Shown here piece by piece: positions 42,741 to 58,961 of a stretch of 64,000 bases of DNA; positions within the stretch are counted from its first letter, which is position 1; each line of letters starts with the position of its first letter. Under the pieces are notes generated by a model, which was given only the letters and a program-made list of their open reading frames with translations, did not search any database and had not been told where the DNA came from. The stretch comes from Bosea beijingensis (lineage in GTDB: Bacteria; Pseudomonadota; Alphaproteobacteria; Rhizobiales; Beijerinckiaceae). The position numbers and the translations under genes are program-made. The stretch is taken from contig NZ_CP132359.1 in assembly GCF_030758975.1 (NCBI RefSeq), positions 372,001 through 436,000 of the forward strand, in the 5' to 3' direction.

Positions 42741-43519
42741 CAGAGCGGCTTTCGCCAGGGCGCGAACCAGCCCAGCCCTTCGAGCGTGCCGGCCTCGGGC
42801 CGATACTCGCAGCCGACGAAGCCGTCATAGCCGAGGCCGTCGAGCTCGTCGAACAGCACCGGATAGTCCGGCCCGGAGGCGTCGGGCTCATGCCGGCCGT
42901 TGGCGCGGGCGATCTGGACATGGCCGACGAGCGGGTAGAGCGCCTTCAACTTCGCCGAGACGCCGCCATGGATCAGCTCGCAGTGATACATGTCGAATTG
43001 CAGCCGCACATTCGGCCGGCCGGATTCGCGGACATAAGCCGCCGCCTGGTCGAAATCATTGAGGAAATAGCCGGGCATGTCCTTGCCGTTGATCGGCTCC
43101 AGCAGGAGGTCGATCCCCTGTTCGCCGAGCTTGTCGGCGGCATAGGCGAGCGAGGCCCGATAGGTCTTCTGCGCGACGGGGTCGTTGGGGTCGGCCAGCC
43201 CCGCCATCATGTGCAGCCGCTTGACCCCGGTCTCATGAACATAGGACAGCGCGGTATCGACCGAAGCCCTGAACTCGTCCTCGCGGCCCGCCAACGAGGC
43301 GATGCCGCGCTCGCCCCTCGCGAAATCGCCGGGCGGCAGGTTGTAGAGCGCCTGTGTGAGGTTGCCGCCCGCCAGTCCGAGCCCGATCTGCTCGGGCGTC
43401 TGCTCATAGGGGAACAGGAACTCGACCGCCTCGAACCCCGCTTCGGCGGCCGCCTTGAAGCGATCGAGGAACTCCCATTCGGTGAACATCATCGACAGGT
43501 TGGCGGCGAAACGCGGCAT
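42740..43519 (-). CDS. OtnI-type 2-oxo-tetronate isomerase / hydroxypyruvate isomerase
   Basis: A 259-residue TIM-barrel isomerase. The family pattern includes MPRFAANLSMMFTE at the start, AGFEAVEFLFPYE, LLLEPINGKDMPGYFLN and LQFDMYHCELIHGG. Metal ligands should include Glu in LLEPIN and Asp and His in the DMYHC segment. Such enzymes isomerise 2-oxo-tetronates or hydroxypyruvate. It is translationally coupled to glucokinase, which suggests sugar-acid catabolism, but there is no otnC or otnK nearby. Confidence 0.87.
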   Translation of the reverse strand: MPRFAANLSMMFTEWEFLDRFKAAAEAGFEAVEFLFPYEQTPEQIGLGLAGGNLTQALYNLPPGDFARGERGIASLAGREDEFRASVDTALSYVHETGVKRLHMMAGLADPNDPVAQKTYRASLAYAADKLGEQGIDLLLEPINGKDMPGYFLNDFDQAAAYVRESGRPNVRLQFDMYHCELIHGGVSAKLKALYPLVGHVQIARANGRHEPDASGPDYPVLFDELDGLGYDGFVGCEYRPEAGTLEGLGWFAPWRKPL

Positions 43520-43633
43520 GTGTCTCTCTGCAGGCTGGGCGGTATCGGTGGCCGCAGGCTAAACCGATGCGCCCGCCGCGTCATTGCCAAACGCGGCAGG
43601 GAGGCAATGCGTTCCGCTACGGCCGTCCGGCCG

Positions 43634-44611
43634 TCACTTCTTCTCCGGCTTCGGCGGCGGGTTCGGATCGGTCGAGAAGCGCCGGAACACCATGTCGGGC
43701 GAGGAGGTGTTGTGGCGCGAATGCGTCGTGCGCCCCATCCAGATATCGGTGGCCTTGCCGCCGGGATAGGACATCAGCGCCTCCTCCCGCCAGCCCTTGG
43801 CACCGGGCTCGCGCAGGGCGATGCGGGCGACATCGTTGTTGAACTCTGTGACATACATCGAGCGCAGCGCCAGAAAGCCTTTGCCTCCCGTCACCGGTTT
43901 GTCGAGCACGGCGTCGAGCACCATCCGATTCTCGTCGACGCTGTCGAGCTTGAGGCTCCCGGACGAGCCGTCCTTGAAGCTCAGCTTGAAAGTCAGCGTC
44001 TTCGGGTCGAATTCGATCTCCTTGATGTTCACGACAGGACGCCTCTCCTGCTCGATCGGCCCGAACAGGAAAGAGGAACCGTAGGAGGAAAAGCCGAGAT
44101 GCTCCGGCGGCAGCGGCCTGGCGCGCCAATTGCCGTCCTGCGGATAGACGACCAGCACCTCATGAGACTTGTCCTTGCCGAGCTTCCAGAGCTGGACGAG
44201 GTGCAGGTTCTTCTCGACGCGATCACCGACGCGGAAGGTCGCCTCAGCCGGGCGCCAGAAGCTCGGAAAGGTATAGCCGACCAGCCAGTAATCGATCGAT
44301 TCATAGAAGGTGACGCGGCGCGGCGGCGTCGGCGGCGTGAAGGACGGGTCGCCCTTCATGTCGCAATTGGTCCAGTCGGCATCCCAGTTGTCGCGCACGA
44401 GCCCCGCGACATAGGCCGGATGCGCCGCCTCGATCTGGAAGCGCCGGACTTCGGGAGAGACCACCTTGATCGTGACATTGTCCTTTTCGGCGCAGAGCAC
44501 CGGCTCGGATTCGTTCTTCACCTCGACCGCGACATCGCCCGCTGCCCGCGCGACCGTCAGCGAGGCGAGAAGAGCGAGTGAAACCGCGAGCGGGCGAAGA
44601 AGGCTGGTCAT
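43634..44611 (-). CDS. Exported hypothetical protein
   Basis: A 325-residue protein with a Sec signal peptide (about 1-23, ending TVARA). The ATG at 44611 has AGGGATCG upstream. The mature part has beta-rich segments, two Cys (in LCAEKDN and NCDMKG) and a Pro/Lys tail ending PKPEKK. I do not recognise a domain. It is divergent from a small membrane-protein gene. Confidence 0.8.
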   Translation of the reverse strand: MTSLLRPLAVSLALLASLTVARAAGDVAVEVKNESEPVLCAEKDNVTIKVVSPEVRRFQIEAAHPAYVAGLVRDNWDADWTNCDMKGDPSFTPPTPPRRVTFYESIDYWLVGYTFPSFWRPAEATFRVGDRVEKNLHLVQLWKLGKDKSHEVLVVYPQDGNWRARPLPPEHLGFSSYGSSFLFGPIEQERRPVVNIKEIEFDPKTLTFKLSFKDGSSGSLKLDSVDENRMVLDAVLDKPVTGGKGFLALRSMYVTEFNNDVARIALREPGAKGWREEALMSYPGGKATDIWMGRTTHSRHNTSSPDMVFRRFSTDPNPPPKPEKK

Positions 44612-44788
44612 GGCGATCCCTGATGATGAGGTTCGGACAGCCTGATCGCAGCGAGATGAACCGTGGCTGACCGGCTTATGGCGAAACCGCGGCAGCCGCG
44701 ACAACGAGCCCGCTTCCGGCATCAGGCCCAGCACTGCTACGAACGGGAAGCGCAGAAGTTCCCTCCTCTGCAGCCGACGGGGCGATCG

Positions 44789-45181
44789 ATGCAGCCGCTG
44801 CTTTTTGGGGCCGGGGTGGTGATGGCGCTGACGGCGCTGGTCCACTCGGTCGTCGGCGAGTTCCTGATCTTCCGGCAATTGCGCAACGGCGGCATCGTTC
44901 CGACGCAAGGAGGCCCGCTGCTGCGGGAGCGCCATGTCAGGATCCTCTGGGCGAGCTGGCATCTCGTCAGCATCCTGGGATGCGCGGTCGCCGCGATCCT
45001 GATCGCCCTCGCGCTGGTGCCGGGTCAGCCCCTGCCGAGCACATGGCTGGTGAAGGTCGCGATCGTGGCATCGCTGGCCGGCTCGGCGCTGGTACTGTTC
45101 GCGACGCGCGGGCGCCATCCCGGCTGGTTCAGCCTACTGGTCGCAGCGATCCTCGCCTGGCTCGGCGTAAGCAGCCTCTGA
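44789..45181 (+). CDS. Small four-helix membrane protein
   Basis: A 130-residue protein starting at ATG 44789 with four hydrophobic helices (about 5-24, 52-72, 82-100, 108-128), MQPLLFGAGVVMALTALVHS first. The ribosome site is weak. The sequence resembles small alphaproteobacterial integral membrane proteins of unknown function. An upstream frame from 44663 is basic and lacks family features. Confidence 0.65.
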   Translation: MQPLLFGAGVVMALTALVHSVVGEFLIFRQLRNGGIVPTQGGPLLRERHVRILWASWHLVSILGCAVAAILIALALVPGQPLPSTWLVKVAIVASLAGSALVLFATRGRHPGWFSLLVAAILAWLGVSSL

Positions 45182-45187
45182 GGCGCC

Positions 45188-45946
45188 TCAACCCGTCAGG
45201 ATCGCGTAGACATCGCCCGAATTGGCCTCATGCGGCAGGCTGCGCAGATAATCGCCCATCGCCTCGGCGCTCGCCGGCTCCGCGAGTTCGAGGATCTGGC
45301 TCTCGCCGATCGCAACGTTGAAGCGATAGGGGCCGAGCGTTTCGAGCAGGGCGAGACAGGCCTCGGCAACCTCGCGCTGGATCGTCGTGAACTCGAAGGA
45401 GATCACCGGCACCGCCTTGGTCAGGCCGGCCAGCACATGCGCCTCGAAGCCCTCGACATCGATCTTGAGCAGCTTCGGCAGGCCGTAGCGCTGGATCAAC
45501 CGGTCGAGCGTCGTGCAGGGCGCGGTGATCTCATGATCCCAGATTTGCCCTTCCCAGCCGCCAGCGCCTGCGGCAGCACCGATGAAGGCGGCCGAGGCTG
45601 TCGAGACCGTGGGATTCTCGCTGTTGATCCGGAGCGCGATCGAGCCCTCATGGTCGCCGCAGGCCGCCTCGACCAATGTCACCAGAGGATCGCGCCGATG
45701 GATGAGGCGGATGACGCGGGCCGGCCCCGGCTGCGGTTCCAGCGCAACGACACGCGCGCCCAGTCTACGGAAGGAGGAAATCCGGTCGCCGACATGGGCG
45801 CCGATATCGAAGGCAAGATCGCCAGGCGCGAGGAAGGTCCCGTAGAGCCGGTCCATCGCCGCATTGCGCTGCTTGTCGCCATGATAAACACGCAGCGAGC
45901 GCGACAGCGCCTTCACCGTGCCCTTGGGATAGGTCACGGCGTTCAT
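45188..45946 (-). CDS. FkbM-family methyltransferase
   Basis: A 252-residue SAM-dependent methyltransferase. Motif I is FDIGAHVGDRISSFRRLG, motif with ALEPQPG follows and LKIDVEGFEAHVLAGL is the FkbM hallmark. FkbM enzymes usually O-methylate sugars or polyketides. Its ATG overlaps the opgH stop by 4 bp (ATGA, 45943-45946), so the two are translationally coupled. This suggests methylation of the osmoregulated glucan or of a related surface sugar. Confidence 0.9.
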   Translation of the reverse strand: MNAVTYPKGTVKALSRSLRVYHGDKQRNAAMDRLYGTFLAPGDLAFDIGAHVGDRISSFRRLGARVVALEPQPGPARVIRLIHRRDPLVTLVEAACGDHEGSIALRINSENPTVSTASAAFIGAAAGAGGWEGQIWDHEITAPCTTLDRLIQRYGLPKLLKIDVEGFEAHVLAGLTKAVPVISFEFTTIQREVAEACLALLETLGPYRFNVAIGESQILELAEPASAEAMGDYLRSLPHEANSGDVYAILTG

Positions 45947-47772
45947 GCCGCCTCCCCGTCACGGATTGCGGCGAGCACCGGCGGCAGGTCGAAATCCTCG
46001 GGAATGCCGCAGAGCCCGCGCCGCGCCAGCCAGGCACCGCAAGCGGGCGCCGCCGTCAGCATGGCGAAGGGGATCGCCAGCACGTAGCCCGCGGTCAACG
46101 GCAGCGACCAGAAAAGCACCGCTGGCGCCACCAGACTCAGCGTGACGAACAAATAGGCCCCGAACAGCAGATGCGGCCACAGTCCCATGAAAGCCGTCGC
46201 GAAGGACAGTGCGTGGGCATCGCGTGCCTGCCCGTTCCAGCCGATCCTGGCCCGTCCGAAGGCGAGCCCGATCATGAACAGCGTGGTGCGGAAACTCGAA
46301 ACGGCACCTTGCAGGAAGGAGAACACCAGCTCGACCGCCGCCGAGACGAGGAACCGCGCCTTGCCGCCGTAACGTTCGACGCCACCGCGCGTCAGCAGGA
46401 TGTCGGCGAAACCGGCAAGCTTGGGCGAGAGATACATCGCCAGAAACAGCAGATAGAGCCCACCTGCGAGCACGGCCGGATAATCGGCGATCGCCCGATC
46501 CTCGACGACCTTCAGCGGCAGGAGCGCGATCATCAGTGTCCAGGCCGGCAGGCCGAGGAACATCAGGATCGCCCAGACAAGCTGGAAACGGCTCATCGGC
46601 TTGAGGCCGGGAATGTCGATCAGCTTGAGATATTGCAGGTTGCCGAGGCACCAGCGCAGGTCGCGCTTGGCGAATTCCAGCATGGTCGGCGGGTTCTCCT
46701 CCCAGCTCCCGCCTTCGACCGGCAGCACGCGCACCTCGTAGCCGGCGCGGCGCATCAAGGTCGCCTCAACCTGGTCATGGCTCATCACGGCTCCGCCCAG
46801 AGGCGGCCCGCCCGGCAGCACCGGCAGATGACAGTGCTCGCGGAACGGCGCGATCCGCACGAGCGCGTTATGTCCCCAGAACGGCCCGCAATCGCCGCCC
46901 CACCAGGCCGAGCCCATGGTGTAGGGCCGCATGCCGTGGCGCATGCCGAACTGGAAGATGCGGGCGAAGGCCGAACGGCTGGGCATGCCGACCACCAGAC
47001 TTTGCAGGATTCCGAGCTTCGGATGCGCCTGCATCATTCGGGCCATCCCGAGGATCGTCTCGCCCGCCATGACGCTGTCGGCATCGAGAGGCAGCATCAG
47101 TTCGTAGCGCTCGCCCCAGCGCTCGCAGAAATCGCGGAGATTGCCGGCCTTGAACCCGGCATTGTCGCTGCGGCGGCGATAGGTCAATCGCGCCGGATCG
47201 CCGAGTTCACGCGTCCAGGCCGCGGCCAGCTTCTCCTCGGCTTCGGCAACCGCCGGATCGCTGGTATCCGACAGCACGAAATAGTCGAACCAGGCGCCCT
47301 CGCCGGTCGCATCGAGGCTGTCCTTGACGACCTTGAGCCGCCGGAAGGCGCGGGCCGGATCCTCGTTGCGCAAGGTCATCAGGACGGCGGTGCGGAGGGT
47401 CAACGGTGTCGCCTCCTCGCTGGCCACGGCAAAGGGCGCGACCCCGGCAAGCCCATCAGCCTTGCCATGCAGGAGCCAGAGCCCGATCGCGGCATTCCAG
47501 AAACCGAGCACGGTCCAGGGCGCCCCGAACAGGAAGGCGATGAAGATCGCGATATCCACGACGCTCCAGCCGCCTGCCCCCAGCACGCGGGCGAGTCCGG
47601 CGAGCAGCAGGGCGAGCGTGCCGAGATTCAGAGCGAGGACGAGGAACCGCCGGCGCCGCAGCACCGTTTCCGCCTGCAGCCCGGCCGGGGTCAGACCGTT
47701 CGGCCCGGCCTCTTGCGTCGCCCGCCGGAACGTGGTCGGAGCGGGACGCTGGTTCATGGCGGTCTCTGTCAT
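45943..47772 (-). CDS. opgH: Glucans biosynthesis glucosyltransferase OpgH (MdoH)
   Basis: A 609-residue inner-membrane glucosyltransferase. Two N-terminal helices precede a GT2 catalytic domain with DADSVM and RDLRWCLGNLQ (the RW pair of the QxxRW motif), then several C-terminal helices. It makes the linear or cyclic backbone of osmoregulated periplasmic glucans from UDP-glucose. No opgG is adjacent, which is unusual. The start at 47772 is an ATG; another lies five codons later. The next gene upstream on the opposite strand starts 39 bp away. Confidence 0.92.
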   Translation of the reverse strand: MTETAMNQRPAPTTFRRATQEAGPNGLTPAGLQAETVLRRRRFLVLALNLGTLALLLAGLARVLGAGGWSVVDIAIFIAFLFGAPWTVLGFWNAAIGLWLLHGKADGLAGVAPFAVASEEATPLTLRTAVLMTLRNEDPARAFRRLKVVKDSLDATGEGAWFDYFVLSDTSDPAVAEAEEKLAAAWTRELGDPARLTYRRRSDNAGFKAGNLRDFCERWGERYELMLPLDADSVMAGETILGMARMMQAHPKLGILQSLVVGMPSRSAFARIFQFGMRHGMRPYTMGSAWWGGDCGPFWGHNALVRIAPFREHCHLPVLPGGPPLGGAVMSHDQVEATLMRRAGYEVRVLPVEGGSWEENPPTMLEFAKRDLRWCLGNLQYLKLIDIPGLKPMSRFQLVWAILMFLGLPAWTLMIALLPLKVVEDRAIADYPAVLAGGLYLLFLAMYLSPKLAGFADILLTRGGVERYGGKARFLVSAAVELVFSFLQGAVSSFRTTLFMIGLAFGRARIGWNGQARDAHALSFATAFMGLWPHLLFGAYLFVTLSLVAPAVLFWSLPLTAGYVLAIPFAMLTAAPACGAWLARRGLCGIPEDFDLPPVLAAIRDGEAA

Positions 47773-47811
47773 GGTAGGCAGACAGGCTCGGACGGACGGG
47801 ATCGGACGCGA

Positions 47812-48831
47812 ATGGCGCGGGAGCTAAAGCCTGCAACATCGACTGACGCAAGGACAAAGGCTCTTGCGCTTTGGTATACAGCGCCCCGTGAATGCAACCT
47901 GAATGAGGTCGCCTTGCCGGCTCTTGGGCCGGAGGACTATCTGCTGACGACGCTCTGGAGCGGCGTCAGCCGCGGCACCGAGCGACTGGTCTGCGAGGGC
48001 CGGGTGCCCGTTTCCGAGCACCAGCGCATGCGCGCGCCCTTTCAGGAAGGCAGCTTCCCGTTTCCCGTCAAATACGGCTATTGCACCGTCGGCCGCGTCG
48101 AGGCCGGTCCGCAGGACAGGATCGGCCGCATCGCCTTCTGTCTCCACCCGCATCAGGACCGTTTCGTCGCGCCAAGCGGAAGTCTCGTACTGGTGCCGGA
48201 TGCGGTTCCGCCTCGGCGCGCGATCCTCGCCGCCAACATGGAGACGGCTCTGAACGCCCATTGGGATGCCGGCTCCGGCCCCGCTGACAGGATCGTGATC
48301 GTCGGCGGCGGCGTTATCGGGCTGCTCGTCGCCTGGCTTGCGGCTCGCTTGCCGGGAGCAGAGGTCACCCTCGTCGATGTCGAGCCAAGCCGGGCCAAGC
48401 TCGCCGCCGAGCTGGGCTTCGGCTTTGCTTTGCCCGATGCAGCGCCCAACGACGCCGACATCGTCTTCCACACCAGCGCTACCGCAGCCGGCCTCGCCAC
48501 CGCCATCGCGGCAGCCGGCACCGAGGCGCGCATCGTCGAGCTGAGCTGGTACGGCGAAGGCGCCGTTCCCGCCGCGCTCGGTGGCGCCTTCCATGCCCGC
48601 CGGCTGCAGCTCGTCTCGTCGCAGGTCGGCCTGGTCTCGGCCTCACGCCGCGCGCGCTGGAATTTTGCCCGCCGGGCCGAAGCCGCCATGGCCCTGCTCG
48701 CCGACGACCGGCTCGATGCGCTGATCACTGACGAGATCGCCTTTCGCGACCTGCCGCAGCGCCTGCCCGGCCTGCTCGCGCCGGGCGCCGCTGGCCTGAC
48801 CGCCGCGATTTGCTATGAAACGCGGCCCTGA
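47812..48831 (+). CDS. MDR-family dehydrogenase without canonical zinc ligands
   Basis: A 339-residue medium-chain dehydrogenase/reductase. The N-terminal domain contains LWSGVSRGTERLVCEG and KYGYCTVGRV. The Cys/His-Glu residues that hold catalytic zinc in alcohol dehydrogenases are absent there. The Rossmann domain has VIVGGGVIGLLVAWLA and a likely NAD-binding acidic residue (LVDVEPS). Its shape resembles the BchC-type branch. It is first in a coupled run with a PTPS-like protein, a glycosyltransferase and a methyltransferase. The start ATG 47812 is only 39 bp from opgH and lacks a strong ribosome site. Confidence 0.82.
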   Translation: MARELKPATSTDARTKALALWYTAPRECNLNEVALPALGPEDYLLTTLWSGVSRGTERLVCEGRVPVSEHQRMRAPFQEGSFPFPVKYGYCTVGRVEAGPQDRIGRIAFCLHPHQDRFVAPSGSLVLVPDAVPPRRAILAANMETALNAHWDAGSGPADRIVIVGGGVIGLLVAWLAARLPGAEVTLVDVEPSRAKLAAELGFGFALPDAAPNDADIVFHTSATAAGLATAIAAAGTEARIVELSWYGEGAVPAALGGAFHARRLQLVSSQVGLVSASRRARWNFARRAEAAMALLADDRLDALITDEIAFRDLPQRLPGLLAPGAAGLTAAICYETRP

Positions 48832-48866
48832 CCGGGCCGAGCCTGAAACCCATCCCGGGAGATCGC

Positions 48867-49268
48867 ATGTTTTCCGTCGAAGTCCGCGACCGCATCATGA
48901 TCGGCCATTCCCTGCCCGATCCCTTTTTCGGTCCGGCGCAGAACATGCACGGCGCCACCTTCGTGGTCGATGTCGCCTTCTTTCGGGAGGCGCTGAACCG
49001 GCAGAACGTCGTGGTCGACATTGGCGCGGCACTCGACACCCTCGCCGAGACGCTGAAGCCCCTGAAGTATCAGAACCTCGACGCCCTCACGCAATTCGCG
49101 GGTGTGCTGACCACCACCGAATTCCTCTGCAAGCACATTTTCGACGCCATGGCGGCAGCGGCGAAATCCGGCGCGCTCGGCGCCGATGGCGCAGGGCTGA
49201 GCAAGATCCGCGTCACCCTGCACGAGACCGACCTCGCCCGCGCGAGCTACGAGGGCGCGCTGGCGTGA
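48867..49268 (+). CDS. PTPS/QueD-fold protein with altered active site
   Basis: A 133-residue T-fold protein of the 6-pyruvoyl-tetrahydropterin synthase family. The catalytic CxxxHGH motif reads AQNMHGA: the Cys is Ala24, the third zinc His is Ala30, and only His14 and His28 remain. The Asp-His motif of the active site reads LKYQNLD. The pterin-anchoring Glu120 (LHETDLARASYEG) and Glu85 (LTTTEFL) are kept. It therefore probably binds a pterin but is not an ordinary synthase; assembly with another subunit or a new reaction is possible. It overlaps the next gene by 4 bp (GTGA). Confidence 0.85.
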   Translation: MFSVEVRDRIMIGHSLPDPFFGPAQNMHGATFVVDVAFFREALNRQNVVVDIGAALDTLAETLKPLKYQNLDALTQFAGVLTTTEFLCKHIFDAMAAAAKSGALGADGAGLSKIRVTLHETDLARASYEGALA

Positions 49269-50329
49269 GCGACATCGTCTTCGCCATCCCCGGCGATATC
49301 GATGCGCCGACCGGCGGCTATGGCTACGACCGGCGCCTCCTGCGCGAATGGCGGGAAGCCGGCATCGAAGCCCGTCATCTCGCCCTGCCCGGCTCCTTCC
49401 CCTTTCCGACGGTCAAGGATCTCGCGGCGGCAGAACAGCTCCTCGTCACGACCGCGCCCGACGACATCCTGCTCGTCGATGGCCTGGCCTTCGGCGCCTT
49501 CCCGGAGGCGCTCGCGGCACGCTTTGCGGATCGACTGGTCGCGCTGGTCCACCATCCACTGGCACTGGAGACGGGGCACAGCCCGAAGGCCGCCGAGACG
49601 TTGCGGCTGAGCGAAACGCTTGCTCTGCGCCATGCCCGCGCCATCGTCGTCACCAGCCCGGCGACGAAGCTGACGCTGGAAGCGGAATTCCAAGTCCCCG
49701 CCGACAAGATCGCCGTCGCGATCCCCGGCACCGACCCGGCGCCGCGTGCTCAGGGCTCCGGACGCAGCGAGGCGCTGTACATGCTCGCCGTCGGCTCGCT
49801 CATTCCCCGCAAGGGCTACGGCATCCTCGTCGAAGCGCTGGCGGAAATCGCGGATCGTCCGTGGACGCTGACCATCGCCGGCTCTCCCGATCATGCTCCG
49901 GCGACGGCAGCGGAATTGCGCGATGGCATCGCCCGCGCCGGACTTGCCGATCGCATCGCGCTGACGGGCGGCGTAGGAGCGGAGCAACTCGCTCTACTCT
50001 ATGACGAAGCCGATCTGTTCGTGATGTCGTCGCTCTATGAAGGCTACGGCATGGTGCTGACCGAAGCGCTGGCGCGCGGTCTGCCGATCGTCACGACGCT
50101 GAGTGGTGCCGGCGCCGACGCCCTGCCCGATGCCGCCGCCCTCAAGGTACCGCCCCGCGACACAGCGGCACTTGCCAAGGCGCTCGCGAGACTGATTGAT
50201 GCGCCGGCAGAGCGTCGGCAGCGCGCCGATGCCGCATGGGCCGCAGCCGGCGATCTGCCGCGCTGGAGCGAGACCGCGCGCATCGTCGCGGAGACGTGCC
50301 TGCGCGACGGCGGCCGAAAGGTGGGGTAA
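49265..50329 (+). CDS. GT4-family glycosyltransferase
   Basis: A 354-residue GT-B enzyme. The start is GTG 49265, overlapping the PTPS-like stop. The N-terminal acceptor half has IPGDIDAPTGGYGYDRRLL. The C-terminal donor half has LYEGYGMVLTEALARGLPIV, the E(x7)E-type donor motif of GT4, and VGSLIPRKGYGILVEAL. It should transfer a sugar from a nucleotide-sugar to a small acceptor; the context suggests a pterin-like acceptor. Its TAA overlaps the next ATG (TAATG). Confidence 0.9.
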   Translation: MSDIVFAIPGDIDAPTGGYGYDRRLLREWREAGIEARHLALPGSFPFPTVKDLAAAEQLLVTTAPDDILLVDGLAFGAFPEALAARFADRLVALVHHPLALETGHSPKAAETLRLSETLALRHARAIVVTSPATKLTLEAEFQVPADKIAVAIPGTDPAPRAQGSGRSEALYMLAVGSLIPRKGYGILVEALAEIADRPWTLTIAGSPDHAPATAAELRDGIARAGLADRIALTGGVGAEQLALLYDEADLFVMSSLYEGYGMVLTEALARGLPIVTTLSGAGADALPDAAALKVPPRDTAALAKALARLIDAPAERRQRADAAWAAAGDLPRWSETARIVAETCLRDGGRKVG

Positions 50330-51168
50330 TGGCTGGTTTCTCTCCGGAATGGCTCGCCTTGCGCGAGCCGGCCGATCATGCGGCACGCAATCCGCAGGTT
50401 CTCGCCGCCGTCGGCGGCTACTTTGCCGACAAGGCCTCGCTCTCGGTGCTCGATCTCGGCTGCGGCGCCGGCTCCAATCTGCGCGGAACCTATGCCGCCC
50501 TGCCCGATCGCCAGCACTGGACACTCGTCGATCACGATGCCGAGCTTCTCGCCTTCGCCCGCGAGCGCCTGATGGAATGGGCCGACGAGGCGCGCGAGCA
50601 GGGCGAGGAACTCGTGCTCGCCAAGGACGGCAAGACGATTACGGTCGACACCCGCAAGGTCGACCTCAACAAGGACCTCGAATGGGTGCTGGGCTGGCAG
50701 CCGGATCTCGTCACTGCTGCCGCGCTGTTCGACTTGGCCTCGAAGCGCTGGATCGAGCGCTTCGTCGCGGCTCTGGCCGCCCAGCACCTGCCGCTCTATG
50801 CCGTATTGACCCATGACGGCCGCGAGACCTGGCTGCCCGAGCACCCGGCCGATACCGGCATCCATGCCGCCTTCACCGACCATCAGCATCGCGACAAGGG
50901 TTTTGGCCCGGCCGCCGGTCCGGGGGCCAGCGAGATCATGGCGGAAGCCTTCCGCAAGTCGGGCTTCGCGATTTCGAGCGGCGACAGCAATTGGCTGCTG
51001 GACGCGAAACGCCGGCCTCTGCAGCAAGCGCTGGCGGAAGGCGTCGCCTCGGCCGTCGGCGAGACCGAGCGCCTCGACCCCAAGACCATCGCGGATTGGC
51101 TCGCAACGCGCCGTGAAGCGCAATCAGCCATGATCGGCCACCAGGACCTCTGGGCCCGTCCGATCTAG
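50329..51168 (+). CDS. Class I SAM-dependent methyltransferase
   Basis: A 279-residue methyltransferase. Motif I is VLDLGCGAGSNLRG, followed by WTLVDHDAELL. It keeps the Rossmann fold, and the C-terminal third is longer than in simple type 11 enzymes. Its ATG shares one base with the glycosyltransferase stop, so it belongs to the same operon. The substrate is unknown. It ends 7 bp before the b561 gene on the other strand. Confidence 0.9.
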   Translation: MAGFSPEWLALREPADHAARNPQVLAAVGGYFADKASLSVLDLGCGAGSNLRGTYAALPDRQHWTLVDHDAELLAFARERLMEWADEAREQGEELVLAKDGKTITVDTRKVDLNKDLEWVLGWQPDLVTAAALFDLASKRWIERFVAALAAQHLPLYAVLTHDGRETWLPEHPADTGIHAAFTDHQHRDKGFGPAAGPGASEIMAEAFRKSGFAISSGDSNWLLDAKRRPLQQALAEGVASAVGETERLDPKTIADWLATRREAQSAMIGHQDLWARPI

Positions 51169-51175
51169 AAAGACT

Positions 51176-51739
51176 CTACCTCACCCACGGCAACATGCGC
51201 CGCATCACGCCGTCCTTGAGGATCAGGTAGTGGTGCAGCGCCGCGCCGATATGCATCAGCGCGAGCGCACCGGTCGCGAGCGCAAGCTTGCCATGGATGG
51301 AAAGCACGCGTTTGGCCGCCTCCTCGTTGGGCTTGGCCAATGCCGGCAGGTCGAACAGGTCGAAGATCGTCAGCGCCGGAAACAGCGACACCCCGATCCA
51401 GCCGAGCAGCGGCACGACGATGAGCAAGCCGTAAAGCAACCAGTGCATCAGATGTGACGCGACCCTCTGCCACCAGGCCAGGCTCGGCTCGTCCGGTGGC
51501 GCTCCGTGCAGCAAACGATAGGCCAGCCGGCCCGCCATCAACCACAGCAGCAGGAAGCCGACGAGCTTGTGCGCGCTGTAGAGCCCGTTGGTCAGCCCGT
51601 CCCAGATATTCAGGACATTGCCGCGATAGCTCATGGTGAGCCCGACCGGGATCATCACGAGGACCGCGGCGACTGTGATCCAGTGCAGCGCCCGGGCGGC
51701 CGGGCTGTAGACGCGGGTTGCCGGCATTTCGTCTTGCAT
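51176..51739 (-). CDS. Cytochrome b561 family protein
   Basis: A 187-residue membrane protein with four helices. Likely heme ligands are His19 (ARALHWITV), His57 (SAHKLVGF), and His near 149 and 163 (SIHGKLALAT, MHIGAAL). It resembles the YodB/CybB type, which transfers electrons across the membrane, for example from quinol. It sits between the modification operon and ribA but reads the other way. Confidence 0.88.
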   Translation of the reverse strand: MQDEMPATRVYSPAARALHWITVAAVLVMIPVGLTMSYRGNVLNIWDGLTNGLYSAHKLVGFLLLWLMAGRLAYRLLHGAPPDEPSLAWWQRVASHLMHWLLYGLLIVVPLLGWIGVSLFPALTIFDLFDLPALAKPNEEAAKRVLSIHGKLALATGALALMHIGAALHHYLILKDGVMRRMLPWVR

Positions 51740-51995
51740 CGGAAAGCCTCCTGACCTGCTGCCGGAACGATATTCATCTCACGTTCAAGCGCATGCGCCC
51801 ATAGGACTGCGACATGCTCCGGAAGTTCCCGTTTTCGCTTGCTGACGCGCGCCATCTGACGGGGTTTTGATCATGGAACCGGCGCCCCGCCCGCCACGTT
51901 GCTGGCAGAGCGCACTGCAAGGTCCTATATCGATACCCGATGGTGCCCTGGACGCTCCCTCGGCCGCTTCCCGGCCCAATCTGACGGACTTTTCG

Positions 51996-53123
51996 ATGCC
52001 TGAGTCGCGTACGCTCTTCGGCCCATCCCTCCAGACGGATCTCGTGAAGGTCGAGCGGGCGATCGCCGAGTTTCGCGCCGGCCGCCCCGTCCTGCTCCGC
52101 GACGGCGGGCGGTTGGCGCTGGCCCTTTCCGCCGAGCTCGCCGACGCCGAACTCGTCCGCCGGTTCGATCGTCTGGCGCAGGGCCGCGGCCATCTCGTGC
52201 TGAGCGCCGCACGCTTGCGCCGTCTCGGCGCCAAGGGGCGCCTGGAGACCGGCATATTCGCGCTCCCGACCATTGATAGCGGCCGCATCGAGACGCTCGC
52301 GCTCAAGATTGACGGCCGCATGGATGCGCCCGTCGCCCCGGCTTCAGCTCTCGACGAGGCCGCGCTTGAACTCGCCCGCCTCTCGCTCGTGCTGCCGGCC
52401 GTGATCCTTGTGCCGGTCAGTGCCGAGGTGGTGGCCGGCGAGCCGCTCGTCGAGGTCGAAATCGCTGCCGTCGACAGCTACCGCGCCGAGCAGGCGGCGA
52501 CGCTCAAGATCGTCGGCCGCGCCCCGGTGCCGCTCGAAGGCGCGCCGGACACCGAGTTCGTCGTCTTCCGCGGCGGCGAGGGCCTGCGCGATCAGGTCGC
52601 GATCATCGTCGGCAAGCCCGATCTCGCCGCTGCCATGCCGGTTCGCCTGCATTCGGCCTGCCTGACCGGCGATCTCTTCGGCTCGCTGAAATGCGATTGC
52701 GGCGACCAGCTCCGCGAGACGGTGCAGTGGATGTCCGAGAACGAGGGCGGCATCCTGCTCTATCTGGACCAGGAAGGCCGTGGCAACGGCATCTCCAACA
52801 AGATGCGCGCCTACAAGCTGCAGAGCCAGGGCTGGGACACCTATGACGCCGACGAGGTCCTCGGCTTCGATCTCGACCAGCGCCATTTCGATTTCGCCGC
52901 GACGATGCTGAAGCAGCTCGGCGTCTCGCGGGTGGTGGCGCTGACCAACAATCCGCAGAAGATCGGCGCGATCGAGGCCGCCGGGCTGGAAGTGGCCGCA
53001 ACCCAGCGCGTGCTCGGCCGTCCGAACGCCCATAACGTCCGCTATCTCGCCTCGAAGCGCGACCGTGCCGGCCATTTTATCGACATGGACGCGCTGATGG
53101 CGCGCGCCGCCCCGACGGATTGA
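51996..53123 (+). CDS. ribA: GTP cyclohydrolase II with degenerate RibB-like domain
   Basis: A 375-residue two-domain protein. The C-terminal half is a complete GTP cyclohydrolase II: zinc ligands Cys222, Cys233 and Cys235 (HSACLTGDLFGSLKCDCGDQ), EGRGNGI and the TNNPQKI end motif. The first step of riboflavin synthesis from GTP is its usual job. The N-terminal 185 residues follow the RibB fold (FRAGRPVLLRD, GRGHLVL) but lack the acidic DDEDRENEGD-type catalytic motif, so dihydroxybutanone-phosphate synthase activity is not expected. The start ATG 51996 is 257 bp from the b561 start. Its product or intermediate could also feed the neighbouring pterin-like operon. Confidence 0.92.
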   Translation: MPESRTLFGPSLQTDLVKVERAIAEFRAGRPVLLRDGGRLALALSAELADAELVRRFDRLAQGRGHLVLSAARLRRLGAKGRLETGIFALPTIDSGRIETLALKIDGRMDAPVAPASALDEAALELARLSLVLPAVILVPVSAEVVAGEPLVEVEIAAVDSYRAEQAATLKIVGRAPVPLEGAPDTEFVVFRGGEGLRDQVAIIVGKPDLAAAMPVRLHSACLTGDLFGSLKCDCGDQLRETVQWMSENEGGILLYLDQEGRGNGISNKMRAYKLQSQGWDTYDADEVLGFDLDQRHFDFAATMLKQLGVSRVVALTNNPQKIGAIEAAGLEVAATQRVLGRPNAHNVRYLASKRDRAGHFIDMDALMARAAPTD

Positions 53124-53154
53124 CCCCGGTCCCGTTTGCGATCAGGCCAGGCTG

Positions 53155-55518
53155 ATGCCCGAGCCCGACAACACCCCGCCCGACAATCCCGGACGCTGGC
53201 CGCTCGCCAGCGTCTGCGCGATCGTGTTTATCGCCTGGCTTGCCCTGTCCTGGCCCTGGCTCTCGGGCACCGTCACGATTCCCTGGGACGCCAAGGCGCA
53301 TTTCCACCCGCAGCTCCAGTTCCTCGCCGATGCCTGGCACAAGGGCCTCTCGCCCTTCTGGACGCCCTATGTCTTCTCCGGCTCGCCGCAGGTCGCCGAT
53401 CCGCAATCCCTGATCTTCTCGCCCTCCTTCGCGCTGATCGCCGCGCTGAATCCGGCTCCCGATTTCCGCTGGAGCGATGGCGCCCTGCTCGGCACGCTGC
53501 TTCTTGGAGCGCTGTCGATCGTCCTGATCTTCCGCGACCGCGGCTGGCATCCGGCCGGCGCCGTCGTCGCGGCTCTCTCCTTCGCCTTCGGCGCGGCGGC
53601 CGCCTGGCGCATCCAGCATGTCGGGCAGGTGCTGAGCCTCGGCTATTTCGCGATCACGCTCTTCCTTTTATCGCGTGCGCTGGAGCGCAGCTCTATCGCC
53701 TATGGCTTCGCAGCAGGCATCGTCTCCGGCTTCATGGTGCTGGGACGCGATCAGATCGCGCTGCTCGGCGTCTATGTCCTCGCCGGGCTGACCATCGCCG
53801 CCATCCTGATGGCGAAGAGCCCATGGCGGGCCTTCCGCGCCAGCCTGCCGCCGCTCGTCGCCGGCACGCTCGGCGCCATCCTGGTCGCAACGGTCCCGAT
53901 CCTGCTGACCGCCTTCATCGCGCAGGAATCGAACCGACCCGTCATCGATTTCGTCGAGGCCGGCAAGGGCTCGCTCCACCCGGCCGCGCTCCTGACCGGG
54001 CTATTCGCCAATCTCTATGGCGCCGCCGGACCGCTCGCCGATTTCTGGGGCGCGCCAAGCCCGGCCTGGGAAGCGCGCTTCGGCCCGCTCAGCCTCTTCC
54101 TCGCCCGCAACATGAGCCAGCTCTATCTCGGCCTGCTGCCGATGGGGCTGATCCTGACGGTCGGCCTCGTCCGCGGCGCGCTCTGGCGGCGCGAGATCGT
54201 CCCGCTGACCGTTGCGGCCATCATCGTCCTGCTCTTCGCGCTCGGCCGCTACACGCCGGCCTTCCGGGTGCTGTTCGAATTGCCCGGCATCAGCTTCTAT
54301 CGCCGCCCGGCCGATGCGCTGTTCATCCTCGGTGCCCTACTTGCCCTGCTCGGCGGCTACCTGACCCATCTCGTCATGACCGGCAGCGCCCCGAAGGCAC
54401 GCCCCTGGCACATCGCCCTCGAAGCCCTGATTTTCACGGGGGCGCTCGCTCTCGCGTTGTGGCTGGCCTGGACGGTTGGGCGCATCCCGGTCGCGACCAT
54501 GCCGCTCGTCTTCGCCGCGTTATGCGCCATGCTCTCGCTCGGCGGCCTTGTCGCGGCGCATGGGCTCGCCAAACGGAACTCGGTCCTCGCCGCGACCATG
54601 GTGCTGGCGGCGACGCTGACCATCGACCTCGCGGTCAACAATGGCCCGAGCGAATCCACGGCCCTGCCCGCGCAGACCTATGACGTGCTGCGCAAAGACA
54701 GCAACAACGAGACCATCGCCCTGCTGAAGCGCGAGACGGCCCGCACCATGGCGCCTGATCGCCGCGACCGCATCGAGCTTGCGGCCATCGACTTCCACTG
54801 GCCCAATGCCAGCCTCGTCCACGGTCTCGACAACACGCTGGGCTACAATCCGCTGCGGCTCGGCCTCTACACCAAGGCGACCGGGGCCGGAGACCATGTC
54901 GCGCTGCCCGACCAGCGCACGTTCTCGCCGCTGATGCCGGGCTATCGCTCCCTGCTCGCCGACATGCTCGGCCTGCGCTTCATCGCGACCGGAGTTCCCG
55001 TCGAGCAGATCGACAAGCGCCTGAAGCCCGGCGACCTCAGGCAGATCGCCCGGACCAAGGACGCTTTCGTCTACGAGAACCCCCGCGCCCTGCCGCGCGT
55101 GCTGCTGGTGACAGAGGCCCGAAAGGCCGATTTCGACGCCATCCTGAAATCCGGCGAATGGCCGCAAGGCTTCGACCCGCGCCGCACCGTCCTGCTCGAC
55201 CGCGACCCCCCTCCACTCCCCACCGGCCCGCTCGGACCCGATAGTGTCGCGATCCGCGACTACGGCACGACGACGGTCACCCTCTCGGCCGAGACGGCGC
55301 GCGGCGGCTATCTCGTGCTCAACGATGTCTGGCACCATTGGTGGCAGGTCGAGATCGACGGCCAGCCGGCCGAATTGCTCCGTGCCAACGTGTTGTTCCG
55401 GGCTGTCGTCGTGCCGCCCGGCAAGTCGACGGTGCGCTTCGTCTTCCGCCCGCTGCAAGGGCTCTGGCAGGATATCGCCGCGTATCTGCACAAGCCTCCG
55501 GCAACGCAGCCGGGTTAG
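53155..55518 (+). CDS. YfhO-like large membrane protein
   Basis: A 787-residue protein with about 12 hydrophobic helices in the first 500 residues and a C-terminal periplasmic domain (about 510-787). The N-terminal DAKAHFHPQLQFLADAW and SGSPQVADPQSL stretches match the YfhO/GT-C membrane-glycosyltransferase pattern. The role is probably lipid-linked sugar transfer or envelope modification. It starts 31 bp after ribA and may be co-transcribed. Confidence 0.85.
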   Translation: MPEPDNTPPDNPGRWPLASVCAIVFIAWLALSWPWLSGTVTIPWDAKAHFHPQLQFLADAWHKGLSPFWTPYVFSGSPQVADPQSLIFSPSFALIAALNPAPDFRWSDGALLGTLLLGALSIVLIFRDRGWHPAGAVVAALSFAFGAAAAWRIQHVGQVLSLGYFAITLFLLSRALERSSIAYGFAAGIVSGFMVLGRDQIALLGVYVLAGLTIAAILMAKSPWRAFRASLPPLVAGTLGAILVATVPILLTAFIAQESNRPVIDFVEAGKGSLHPAALLTGLFANLYGAAGPLADFWGAPSPAWEARFGPLSLFLARNMSQLYLGLLPMGLILTVGLVRGALWRREIVPLTVAAIIVLLFALGRYTPAFRVLFELPGISFYRRPADALFILGALLALLGGYLTHLVMTGSAPKARPWHIALEALIFTGALALALWLAWTVGRIPVATMPLVFAALCAMLSLGGLVAAHGLAKRNSVLAATMVLAATLTIDLAVNNGPSESTALPAQTYDVLRKDSNNETIALLKRETARTMAPDRRDRIELAAIDFHWPNASLVHGLDNTLGYNPLRLGLYTKATGAGDHVALPDQRTFSPLMPGYRSLLADMLGLRFIATGVPVEQIDKRLKPGDLRQIARTKDAFVYENPRALPRVLLVTEARKADFDAILKSGEWPQGFDPRRTVLLDRDPPPLPTGPLGPDSVAIRDYGTTTVTLSAETARGGYLVLNDVWHHWWQVEIDGQPAELLRANVLFRAVVVPPGKSTVRFVFRPLQGLWQDIAAYLHKPPATQPG

Positions 55519-55615
55519 CCCGCCGGCCGCGGCGGGAAGGCGAAAATCGCCTCTCCTGCCAATTTCCGCCGCGCTATCGTGGCAAACAGCCCGGCCTGAT
55601 AACCAGACTTGCGAG

Positions 55616-57154
55616 ATGACGATGACGGCGGCACCCGCTTCGACCGGCGGAGGGACGAAGGCGACCCGGCGCGAATGGCTCGGCCTGATTGCGATCGCGC
55701 TGCCCTGCATGATCTATTCGATGGATCTGACGGTGCTGAACCTCGCCGTGCCGACGCTGACGCGCGAGTTGAAGCCGAGCGCCAGCCAGCTCCTCTGGAT
55801 CATCGACATCTACGGCTTCATGGTCGCCGGCTTCCTGATGACCATGGGCACGCTGGGAGACCGCATCGGCCGCCGCCGCCTGCTGATGATCGGCGCCGCC
55901 TTCTTCGGCGTCGCCTCGACGGTCGCTGCCTTCTCGAACAGCGCGGAGATGCTGATCGCGATGCGCGCCGTGCTCGGCATCGCCGGCGCGACGCTGGCGC
56001 CCTCTACGCTCTCGCTGATCACCGTGATGTTCACCGACGAGAAGGAGCGCACCTTCGCGATCTCGATGTGGATCGCCAGCTTCTCGGCCGGCGCGATCAT
56101 CGGCCCGGTCGTCGGCGGTTTCCTGATCGAGTATTTCTGGTGGGGCTCGGTCTTCCTGATCGCCGTGCCGCCAATGCTGCTGCTCCTCGCGATCGGCCCG
56201 ATCCTGCTGCCGGAGTACCGCGCGCCGAATGCCGGGCGCATCGACGTGCTCAGCGCACTGCTCTCGCTCGCCGCCGTGCTCAGCCTGATCTATGGCGTCA
56301 AGCACTGGGCAGCCGAGGGCTTCGACTGGCTGGCCGCCGCGGCGATCCTCGTCGGCTTCGCCTTCGTCCTGATCTTCATCCGCCGTCAGAAGCGGCTCGC
56401 CGACCCGGTGGTCGACCTCGCCATGTTCCGGATTCCGGCCTTCCGGGCGGCGCTGGCGATCAACCTTGCCGGCATCCTCTTCATGTTCGGCAGCTTCATC
56501 TTCATGGCGCAGTATTTCCAGCTCGTCGCCGGTTTGACGCCACTGCAGGCCGGGCTCTGGTCGCTTCCCTCGGCGATCGCCTTCACGCTCGCCTCCTTCG
56601 TGACGCCGGCGCTGGTCGGGCGCTACAAGCCGGCGACCCTGATGGCCGGCGGGATGGCGCTTTCGGCGCTCGGCTTCGTCTGGCTCGTCTTCGCGCCGAG
56701 CCTGATCCAGATCGTCGCGGCCTCGGTCGTGTTCTCGATCGGCTTCACGCCGGTGATCACGCTGACGACCGGCATCGTCGTCGGCTCGGCTCCACCCGAG
56801 CGCACCGGCGCGGCCTCCGCCATGTCGGAAACCTCGGCCGAACTCGGCGGCGCGCTCGGCATTGCCGTGCTCGGCAGCCTGGGCGCCGCCCTCTATCGCA
56901 GCCGCATGGCGGATGTCGCCGTATCCGGCGTCAGTGCGGATGCGCTCGCCCCGGCACGCTCGACTCTCGGTGGCGCGCTGGCGCTGGCCGCGGGGCTCTC
57001 GCCCGATCATGCCGGGCCGATGCTGGCTCGCGCCAGCGAGGCCTTCATGGTCGGCTTCCGCGCGGTGGCGATCCTGTCGATCGTCGGCATGCTGTTCTGC
57101 ATCGTCATCACGCTGACGACCCTGCGCGACGCCCGCACGGGCGACGCGCACTGA
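55616..57154 (+). CDS. 14-helix MFS transporter (DHA2 family)
   Basis: A 512-residue drug:proton antiporter type protein with 14 predicted helices. The family motif GTLGDRIGRRRLL is in the second loop, and the motif C antiporter glycines GPVVGG are present. The start is ATG 55616, with a second ATG two codons later. It resembles SmvA/QacA-type exporters. It ends 8 bp from the convergent HAD gene. Confidence 0.93.
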   Translation: MTMTAAPASTGGGTKATRREWLGLIAIALPCMIYSMDLTVLNLAVPTLTRELKPSASQLLWIIDIYGFMVAGFLMTMGTLGDRIGRRRLLMIGAAFFGVASTVAAFSNSAEMLIAMRAVLGIAGATLAPSTLSLITVMFTDEKERTFAISMWIASFSAGAIIGPVVGGFLIEYFWWGSVFLIAVPPMLLLLAIGPILLPEYRAPNAGRIDVLSALLSLAAVLSLIYGVKHWAAEGFDWLAAAAILVGFAFVLIFIRRQKRLADPVVDLAMFRIPAFRAALAINLAGILFMFGSFIFMAQYFQLVAGLTPLQAGLWSLPSAIAFTLASFVTPALVGRYKPATLMAGGMALSALGFVWLVFAPSLIQIVAASVVFSIGFTPVITLTTGIVVGSAPPERTGAASAMSETSAELGGALGIAVLGSLGAALYRSRMADVAVSGVSADALAPARSTLGGALALAAGLSPDHAGPMLARASEAFMVGFRAVAILSIVGMLFCIVITLTTLRDARTGDAH

Positions 57155-57162
57155 ACGCAGCC

Positions 57163-58023
57163 TCAGGCCAGCGCACCCATCGCCGCAATCGGCTGGACGG
57201 GCAGTCCGTCCAGCACCTTGGCCAGGCCGGGCGCGTCGACCTCCCCGCCGCGCATGGTCTCGTCGCGATGGATGCCGCCGGCAATGAACAGGCTGTCGAA
57301 ACCCATCAGGCGCGCCCCGGCGAGGTCGGTGCGAACCGCGTCGCCGATCACCAGCACCTTGCCGGGCTCGACCGATCGGCCGCCACGGGCATCGGCCGCC
57401 GCCGCCAGCGCGAGGTCATAGGCCGGGCGATACGGCTTGCCGGCCCAGGCGACGGAGCCGCCGAGCTCCTCGTAGATCGTCGCGAGCGCACCGGCGCAAG
57501 GCAGCAGGTCCTCGCCGACATGCACGACGAGATCGGGATTGCCGCAGATAAGGGGCAGACCGCGCCGGGCGAAGCGCTCCAATAGCGGCCGGTACTGCTC
57601 CGGCGTCTCGGTGCGGTAGTCGTTGAGCTCGGTCGCAACGACGATATCGGCCTTGTCCTCGTCGACGAGCGCGACATCCAGTCCGTCGAACACGGCTCGG
57701 TCGCTCTGCCAGCCGATATGGTAGGCGCGCTTGTGATGGCTCTGCGCGATCAGCGCTCGCGTGACGTCGCCGGAAGTGACGAGCCGATCCCAGGCCTCGC
57801 GCGGCACGCGCTTGGCGTCGAGCAGTCCTGCGACCTGCTGCGACGGCCCCGGCGCGTTCGAGAGCAGCACCACCGTGCCGCCGCGCTCGCGATAGGCGAT
57901 CAGCGCGTCGCAGGCCGGCTCCAGCGCCCAGAGCCCGTCATGCACCACGCCCCAGACATCGCTGATCAGCACATCGTAGCGGGCGAGGAGATCGCCCGCC
58001 CGCTTCAGAATCGGAACGCTCAT
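57163..58023 (-). CDS. HAD-superfamily hydrolase (TIGR01459 type)
   Basis: A 286-residue HAD IIA hydrolase. Motif I is ISDVWGVVHDG, motif II TVVLLSNAPGPS, and the C-terminal GKPYRPAYDLA with VIGDAVRTDLAGA gives motifs III and IV. It is probably a phosphatase. The start ATG shares one base with the upstream kinase stop (TGATG), so the two are coupled. Confidence 0.9.
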   Translation of the reverse strand: MSVPILKRAGDLLARYDVLISDVWGVVHDGLWALEPACDALIAYRERGGTVVLLSNAPGPSQQVAGLLDAKRVPREAWDRLVTSGDVTRALIAQSHHKRAYHIGWQSDRAVFDGLDVALVDEDKADIVVATELNDYRTETPEQYRPLLERFARRGLPLICGNPDLVVHVGEDLLPCAGALATIYEELGGSVAWAGKPYRPAYDLALAAAADARGGRSVEPGKVLVIGDAVRTDLAGARLMGFDSLFIAGGIHRDETMRGGEVDAPGLAKVLDGLPVQPIAAMGALA

Positions 58024-58961
58024 CAGGACCGCGCCTCCGCAGCGATGCGGGCCTCGACATCGACGCGACGCGGCAGCGGCGCCACCGCACCATACCCCAG
58101 CGTCGAAAGCGCCGCCGCGACATTGGCGTAGGCACCGGCGGCGAAGGCATCGCCCGTGCGCAGGTATTCGGCAAGGAAGGCGCCGTCATAGCAATCGCCC
58201 GCGCCGGTCGCGTCGATCGCATCGACCTTGATCGGTCGGAAGCGCTCGCGCCGAACCGGTGTCGCCACCAGCGAGCCCTCGTGGCCGAGCGTCAACGCCA
58301 CGACCCGCGCGCCAAGCCCGAGATAGAAATCGACGATGGCATCGGGGTTGTTGAGCCCCGTGAGCTGCGTCGCATCATCGAGACCGGGCAGGATGATGTC
58401 GGCCATGGCGCAGGCGGCATGGATGATCGCCCTGGCGCGGGTCAGCGGCCAGAGTTTAAGGCGCAGGTTGGTGTCGTAGGCAGTGAGCACGCCGGCCTTG
58501 CGCGCGGTGTCGAACGCGTCGAACACGGCGTCGCAGGCGCTGGCTGAGATCGCCTGGCTGATGCCGGAAGCCTGGATGATCCGGGCGGAGCGGATCAGGT
58601 CGCGCGGCAGGTCGCGCGGGCCGTAGAGGCTCGCGGCCGAGCCGGCGCGCAGATAGGAGAAGACATGGCCGGACGGGCCGTGATCGACGAAATAGAGGCC
58701 GGTCGGCGCGCTCGGATGGGTCGCGACATGGCTGTCGTCGACGCCTTCGCGCTTCCACAGGCCGCGGATCGAATGACCGGCGCTGTCATCGCCCAGCGCG
58801 CCGAGATAGCCGACCGACATGCCCTGGCGCGCCGCCGCGACCGCGCAGTTCGAGGTATCGCCGCCATGCCCGAACAGGAAGGCGCCGCTCTCGGCGCGGG
58901 TCGCATTGAACTCGCCGAGCGGTTCGCCGAGGCAGAGAAGATCGAAGCGGCTGTCGGTCAC
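58023..58961 (-). CDS. PfkB-family sugar kinase (KdgK-like)
   Basis: A 312-residue ribokinase-family enzyme. The N-terminal LCLGEPLGEFNA and GGDTSNCAVAAAR and the C-terminal anion hole DATGAGDCYDG with catalytic Asp256 are present. It resembles 2-keto-3-deoxygluconate kinases. The start is GTG 58961, with a weak ribosome site. It is coupled to the HAD hydrolase. Confidence 0.9.
   Translation of the reverse strand: MTDSRFDLLCLGEPLGEFNATRAESGAFLFGHGGDTSNCAVAAARQGMSVGYLGALGDDSAGHSIRGLWKREGVDDSHVATHPSAPTGLYFVDHGPSGHVFSYLRAGSAASLYGPRDLPRDLIRSARIIQASGISQAISASACDAVFDAFDTARKAGVLTAYDTNLRLKLWPLTRARAIIHAACAMADIILPGLDDATQLTGLNNPDAIVDFYLGLGARVVALTLGHEGSLVATPVRRERFRPIKVDAIDATGAGDCYDGAFLAEYLRTGDAFAAGAYANVAAALSTLGYGAVAPLPRRVDVEARIAAEARS

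Follow-up and report, generated by a model that had tools for sequence, protein, structure and literature searches.

A widespread MDR/PTPS-IV gene cluster in Bosea beijingensis and its possible GTP-derived product

What could a dehydrogenase, a pterin-fold protein, a glycosyltransferase and a methyltransferase make together, and does a nearby GTP cyclohydrolase II supply them? The question is raised by a 64,000-nucleotide stretch of the Bosea beijingensis genome (contig NZ_CP132359.1, positions 372,001 to 436,000; hereafter the window, whose own numbering is used throughout). Four closely packed plus-strand genes at 47812-51168 encode an MDR-family oxidoreductase, a homolog of 6-pyruvoyltetrahydropterin synthase (PTPS), a GT4 glycosyltransferase and a methyltransferase, and a GTP cyclohydrolase II gene (ribA) lies further downstream. 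An original prediction, made from the letters of the window, saw in these five genes a possible undescribed route to a glycosylated and methylated pterin or related molecule, an interpretation that our comparisons partly support. The locus may be one version of a widespread MDR/PTPS-IV cluster, fed by GTP cyclohydrolase II, that makes a glycosylated, methylated 2-aminopyrimidinone or pterin; we hold the arguments for and against this reading to be about evenly balanced.

Conservation of the four-gene unit

The genes, strands, coordinates and overlaps of the original prediction were confirmed. The MDR gene (47812..48831, +) ends 35 bp before the PTPS-like gene (48867..49268, +), whose TGA is overlapped by four bases by the GTG start of the GT4 gene (49265..50329, +); this in turn overlaps by one base (TAATG) the gene for a class I S-adenosylmethionine-dependent methyltransferase (50329..51168, +), so that the last three genes are coupled by GTGA and TAATG. 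RibA (51996..53123, +, with its ATG at 51996) starts 827 bp after the methyltransferase gene, past a minus-strand b561-type gene. The G+C content of the cluster is 68.2%, compared with 67.6% for the whole window.

The PTPS-like protein is 98% identical to its Bosea robiniae counterpart (among the best 80 of 230 related places), and its distribution extends well outside the genus. Among 60 genomes of the same family, 30 encode it, representing 23 of 43 genera. The MDR gene occurs in exactly those 30 (Fisher 1.7e-17, relatedness ignored), and the methyltransferase gene in 29; it was not found in any of the 30 genomes without PTPS. Among 398 Pseudomonadota genomes, PTPS and MDR are found in an identical set of 27 (Fisher 1.7e-42, relatedness again ignored), and the methyltransferase accompanies them in 25, occurring also in one genome that lacks PTPS. 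Because the genomes are related these Fisher values are optimistic, and in some genomes only part of the first-look candidates was scored in the MDR and methyltransferase searches. The single methyltransferase relative outside the set (G421, C2:66663-67433) lies in a genome with neither a PTPS nor an MDR match. Disrupted MDR copies were considered and rejected: in-frame stops were flagged in 12 of 132 extracted MDR matches, all within the last seven codons, and are the natural ends of the genes.

Gene order was compared in loci gathered around PTPS-IV, the subfamily to which the window protein is assigned below. Of 144 such loci, a set that holds some genomes twice, 25 with less than 6 kb on a side were dropped, and the remaining 119 were thinned at <80% PTPS identity to 35 representatives that include the window and contain PTPS-IV by construction; from the 27 Pseudomonadota genomes, regions were taken for 20, plus a further three and the window. 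By tblastn within 10 kb of PTPS, the scope of all neighbour counts given for the 35 loci, MDR is present in 33 of the 35 loci, GT4 in 32 and the methyltransferase in 31. Same-strand adjacency is retained across these diverged loci, Actinomycetota included, for MDR-PTPS (33), PTPS-GT4 (30) and GT4-methyltransferase (29). For the four core genes, pairwise divergences are correlated with each other (r 0.55-0.70, with none of 500 permutations as high), and those of b561 correlate less with the core (r 0.31-0.43, 0 to 5 of 500 permutations).

The unit also occurs on plasmids. In 8 of 14 plasmid records examined, out of 20 that match PTPS-IV, the order MDR-PTPS-GT4-methyltransferase is intact (Streptomyces fungicidicus, S. 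globisporus, Microbacterium, Thiodictyon, Methylosinus, Agrobacterium, Neorhizobium and Rhizobium); two others have MDR-PTPS-methyltransferase, one has MDR-PTPS-GT4, and three from Streptomyces have PTPS-IV alone. The evidence thus supports a four-gene unit that is conserved and co-inherited far beyond this Bosea strain, with the PTPS-IV/MDR pair occurring in Alphaproteobacteria, Actinomycetota and at least one gammaproteobacterium. A gene order confined to this strain, which the original prediction had named as the first reason to abandon it, is therefore not what was found.

The PTPS-IV protein and its partners

The window protein matches PF01242 (E 2.4e-19, 69.9 bits against a cut-off of 22.4) and carries at residues 21-25 the FGPAQ signature, which is conserved across the 35 loci at F (35), G (35), P (34), A (35) and Q (35). 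On these features it is assignable to PTPS-IV, a subfamily of COG0720. The description of the protein as an altered PTPS was borne out, and the PTPS catalytic residues are gone: the last histidine of the HGH zinc motif, the third zinc histidine, is alanine in all 144 aligned rows, the motif cysteine is lost in 143 (a cysteine falls within residues 15-31 in only one row), and tyrosine takes the place of the catalytic histidine in 136. The first zinc histidine is kept in 143 rows (with one gap) and the histidine of HG in 144, and E85 and E120 are invariant. In the PTPS family, a glutamate anchors the 2-amino-4-oxo ring. A queuosine Gene Ontology term is attached to the PTPS-IV protein in six of the plasmid records examined, a label that its sequence does not support.

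The sole strong relative of solved structure is Streptomyces coelicolor SCO6650 (3D7J, E 8.6e-37), to which the window protein is identical at 71 of 132 residues and the S. fungicidicus cluster protein at 121 of 132. The S. fungicidicus cluster runs PTPS, GT4, methyltransferase, flippase-like, creatininase, RibA, an order that would fit the numbering SCO6650 to SCO6655. The structure paper on SCO6650 is reported to have detected neither PTPS activity nor zinc, and SCO6655 is reportedly a GTP cyclohydrolase II with a Tyr-to-Met change that halts at the formylamino intermediate.

The MDR protein is predicted to adopt the MDR fold (pLDDT 87; its three best PDB matches have a query TM of 0.73-0.76), and its match to ADH_zinc_N scores 25.4, under the cut-off of 31.8. 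Zinc alcohol dehydrogenases carry a GHE motif; at that place the window protein has GYC (by eye), and its catalytic zinc ligands are apparently lost. The GT4 protein belongs to PF13692 (E 6.5e-28), and D-inositol-3-phosphate and phosphatidylinositol-mannoside glycosyltransferases are among its relatives of solved structure. Pfam gives the methyltransferase only methyltransferase matches, all below cut-off.

RibA, recurrent neighbours and a candidate pathway

By family score (PF00925, E 2.3e-46; NF006456, 507.9 bits against a cut-off of 464) and by the zinc cysteine and tyrosine motifs present in its alignment to 2bz0, the window RibA is a standard GTP cyclohydrolase II. PF00925 is matched at two further places in the genome, in a RibBA and in a 442-aa protein. 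In the RibBA (L180:1868-3148, -) the cyclohydrolase half is, by eye, without the zinc cysteine and tyrosine motifs, so the genome seems to rely on the window RibA; the 442-aa protein has PF12471 plus a 57-bit PF00925 match, by eye retains cysteines at the place of the zinc motif, and is of a type known from uracil catabolism. On this comparison the window enzyme is the only one of canonical type in the genome, contrary to the claim that no standard riboflavin gene is present here. A RibD is found by Pfam at 942-948 kb, with neighbours that resemble RibE and RibH by eye. RibA probably feeds riboflavin as well, barring a bypass of GTP cyclohydrolase II like that of Sinorhizobium (PMC9478397).

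Is RibA then part of the cluster? This type of RibA is present in 28 of the 30 same-family genomes with PTPS and in 9 of the other 30 (p 5.5e-7, relatedness ignored). It lies about 3 kb downstream of the cluster in many Bosea loci, and some 14-15 kb away in the two other genomes of the genus that were sampled. It is thus an associated feeder and no fixed fifth member, as which the original prediction had counted it.

Other riboflavin-type genes recur as well. Within 10 kb, RibD-C is found in 22 of the 35 loci, RibA in 15 and creatininase in 7, and the chance of a GTP cyclohydrolase II or RibD-C gene falling so close is about 1% (three and two places in a 5.56-Mb genome). Pfam scans of ten neighbour proteins covered examples of RibD-C, creatininase, RibA, CDP-alcohol phosphatidyltransferase, flippase-like and sulfatase-like proteins (the last just under its cut-off), and the three RibD-C proteins scanned are all without a deaminase domain. 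RibA, creatininase and RibD-C co-recur in some sister clusters (L167, L170 and L173). Since RibA and RibD-C recur beside PTPS-IV in distant bacteria, a GTP-derived 2-aminopyrimidinone or pterin is indicated; the combination of RibA, a creatininase formamidase and RibD-C without a deaminase fits an opening of GTP in which the 2-amino group is kept. An enzyme of the creatininase family is a proven formamidase on the formylamino intermediate (PMC9478397).

We infer the chemical steps, and with them the product, from the enzyme families. RibA would open GTP to 2,5-diamino-6-ribosylamino-4(3H)-pyrimidinone 5'-phosphate, a step that in clusters with creatininase may be shared between RibA and a formamidase-like creatininase. 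In most sister clusters the deaminase-less RibD-C reductase may then reduce the intermediate with its 2-amino group intact; in Bosea the genome's own RibD could replace it, or the reduction could be skipped. PTPS-IV, which has ceased to qualify as PTPS or QueD, might hold the 2-amino-4-oxo ring by its invariant glutamate and, with the apparently metal-free MDR oxidoreductase, reshape the side chain or close a pterin-like ring, after which GT4 could attach a sugar and the methyltransferase a methyl group. The original prediction of a glycosylated, methylated pterin thus gains support for an origin in GTP, from the recurrence of RibA and RibD-C, and its exact product stays a suggestion drawn from enzyme families; GT4 and the methyltransferase, which it placed in the set, are frequent and not universal.

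Several observations weigh against this pathway. RibA is close to PTPS in fewer than half of the loci and probably has riboflavin to serve, and the Bosea locus itself is without RibD-C and creatininase. GT4 or the methyltransferase is absent from some clusters (L149, L155, L163, L165 and L176), and PTPS-IV stands without any other cluster gene on the three actinobacterial (Streptomyces) plasmids L146, L174 and L179, possibly a separate use of the fold. Foldseek returned for the methyltransferase and MDR proteins only generic class I methyltransferases and MDRs, and no substrate. A methionine for tyrosine in RibA does not track creatininase outside Streptomyces.

On these exceptions some details may be recorded. 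The lone PTPS-IV genes lie beside cupin, MBL-fold and BTAD/sigma regulator genes. L163 and L165, two genomes of one genus, keep MDR, PTPS-IV, GT4 (shifted upstream), RibD-C and RibA, with no methyltransferase match. Two Streptomyces clusters with creatininase (L147 and L173) have the methionine-type RibA, and a rule by which creatininase goes with this type was rejected, as L167, L170 and L171, from another class of the phylum, keep the tyrosine.

The remaining neighbours are largely of membrane or envelope type. A divergent membrane GT2 assigned by NCBIfam to MdoH (45943..47772, -; NF003963, 949.3 bits against a cut-off of 884) recurs in 16 of the 35 loci and the cytochrome b561-type membrane protein (51176..51739, -; PF01292) in 12; CDP-alcohol phosphatidyltransferase is found in 11 and a flippase-like protein in 9. 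Rarer are an FkbM-family methyltransferase (45188..45946, -; PF05050; 8 loci), a YfhO/PMT-like membrane protein (53155..55518, +; both matches below cut-off; 6 loci, mainly close relatives) and a sulfatase-like protein (5 loci). The presence of the MdoH-like GT2 and b561 here, and of the phosphatidyltransferase and flippase-like protein elsewhere, suggests that the product is destined for the envelope or crosses it; the neighbours are compatible with its being lipid-linked, exported, or both.

The same genes lend themselves to a different explanation, in which the core genes produce a sugar or glycolipid of the envelope and RibA and RibD-C are there incidentally; PTPS-IV would then serve as a subunit for binding or assembly, handling neither pterin nor pyrimidine. 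The MdoH-like GT2, FkbM, CDP-alcohol phosphatidyltransferase, flippase-like and YfhO-like proteins do resemble envelope glycan and lipid genes, and a RibA that is not always close and serves riboflavin would be expected of a mere bystander. However, RibD-C recurs far over chance, and the two glutamates of PTPS-IV are invariant in every row, and we consider this explanation unlikely. Rather unlikely too, and ranked just after it, is a tetrahydropterin glycoside built from the FolE product dihydroneopterin triphosphate, with RibA a mere neighbour. PTPS proteins normally use FolE products, and a glycosyltransferase with a methyltransferase fits known pterin decorations, such as cyanobacterial pterin glycosides or the proposed 2'-O-methylmonapterin of Agrobacterium (PMC13259868). 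It would nonetheless require PTPS-IV to act on dihydroneopterin triphosphate without the residues for doing so, and the recurring neighbours are RibA and RibD-C instead; no FolE- or FolB-like recurrent neighbour was seen by eye in 44 loci, where no FolE profile search was made. An offshoot of flavin or deazaflavin (F420-like) synthesis is improbable: RibA and RibD-C do belong to those routes, and PTPS-IV has been placed in archaeal F420 synthesis with reference to unpublished work (PMC5041015), yet the cluster RibD-C lacks the deaminase required for riboflavin in all three cases scanned, RibD and RibE/RibH-like genes lie elsewhere in the genome, and no radical-SAM recurrent neighbour was noticed by eye, CofC-H not having been searched for.

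Returning to a GTP-derived, decorated pyrimidinone or pterin, it is tempting to speculate that it belongs to a new class of redox molecule of the envelope, joined to a phospholipid in many lineages by the CDP-alcohol phosphatidyltransferase, moved by the flippase-like protein and served by b561, and that Bosea and its relatives have a variant that lacks the phosphatidyltransferase and has an MdoH-type membrane glycosyltransferase next to it; in this elaborated form the idea is a long shot. Elsewhere in the Bosea genome, a search for a CDP-alcohol phosphatidyltransferase of the cluster type gave three weak matches (best E 1.8e-5) and none that was strong.

Two further genes of the window may be mentioned. 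A protein of about 325 aa (43634-44611, -, start inferred) that looks secreted and has no Pfam match is kept beside FkbM and the MdoH-like GT2 in 79 of 109 loci (L031-L139). A PfkB-family sugar kinase is encoded at 58026-58961 (-), and relatives lie near the cluster in L149, L159 and L176; among other recurrent families in 44 loci, all appeared by eye to be antisense frames of known genes, except PfkB kinase (4 loci). No Rfam element, riboswitches included, reached its gathering score in 42000-58000.

If the proposed pathway is real, Alphaproteobacteria and Actinomycetota, with at least one gammaproteobacterium, share a biosynthetic route that has been overlooked because the names given to its genes refer to queuosine, to riboflavin or to sugars in general. 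The orphan crystal structure 3D7J would then have a role, as would the PTPS-IV subfamily, and it would become testable what a T-fold protein without metal site and catalytic residues acts on.

Comparison with known systems

The protein families are known and the pathway is apparently undescribed. We found no description of the whole cluster in the openly licensed literature, a scope that leaves out most subscription papers. The statement that no established pathway has this gene set thus agrees with the papers found, with the reservation that the subfamily and part of its neighbourhood are already in print: PMC5445326 names PTPS-IV, gives its FGPAQ signature, and places PF00925 and PF01872 in the neighbourhood of a 561-sequence cluster. 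In the window only RibA, and not RibD-C, is beside PTPS-IV. That paper labels PF00925 GTP cyclohydrolase I/FolE2, unlike Pfam's own name for the family, GTP cyclohydrolase II. Elsewhere, SCO6655 is listed among genes anticorrelated with predicted flux (PMC2853524), and Streptomyces GTP cyclohydrolase II work is cited in PMC3509567.

The closest likeness is to PTPS-IV with SCO6650 (3D7J), which shares the FGPAQ motif and, in part, the published neighbourhood; the difference is that the papers found do not describe MDR, GT4, methyltransferase and membrane genes as a cluster. QueD and the eukaryotic PTPS share the T-fold, PF01242, the first zinc histidine and the histidine of HG with the window protein. 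It differs from QueD/PTPS-I (CxxxHGH) in having HGA and no cysteine, and scores 29.9 bits against a cut-off of 89.25 (59 short); alignment to 1b66 and 3i2b likewise reveals neither the CxxxxxHGH motif nor the catalytic Asp/His of eukaryotic PTPS-II. The MDR protein has BchC, the bacteriochlorophyll dehydrogenase, as its best NCBIfam match, at 54.2 bits against an equivalog cut-off of 291.25.

The archaeal-type start of riboflavin synthesis, with a cyclohydrolase, a formamidase and a RibD-C reductase, resembles the sister clusters in which RibA, creatininase and RibD-C stand together; the window has only RibA of these, and the other cluster genes are foreign to riboflavin synthesis. The cyanobacterial pterin glycosides and the proposed 2'-O-methylmonapterin of Agrobacterium are glycosylated or methylated as our candidate would be, and are FolE-derived according to a review of pterin signals (PMC13259868, which uses neither the term PTPS nor RibA), whereas the genes that recur beside PTPS-IV point to an origin through GTP cyclohydrolase II.

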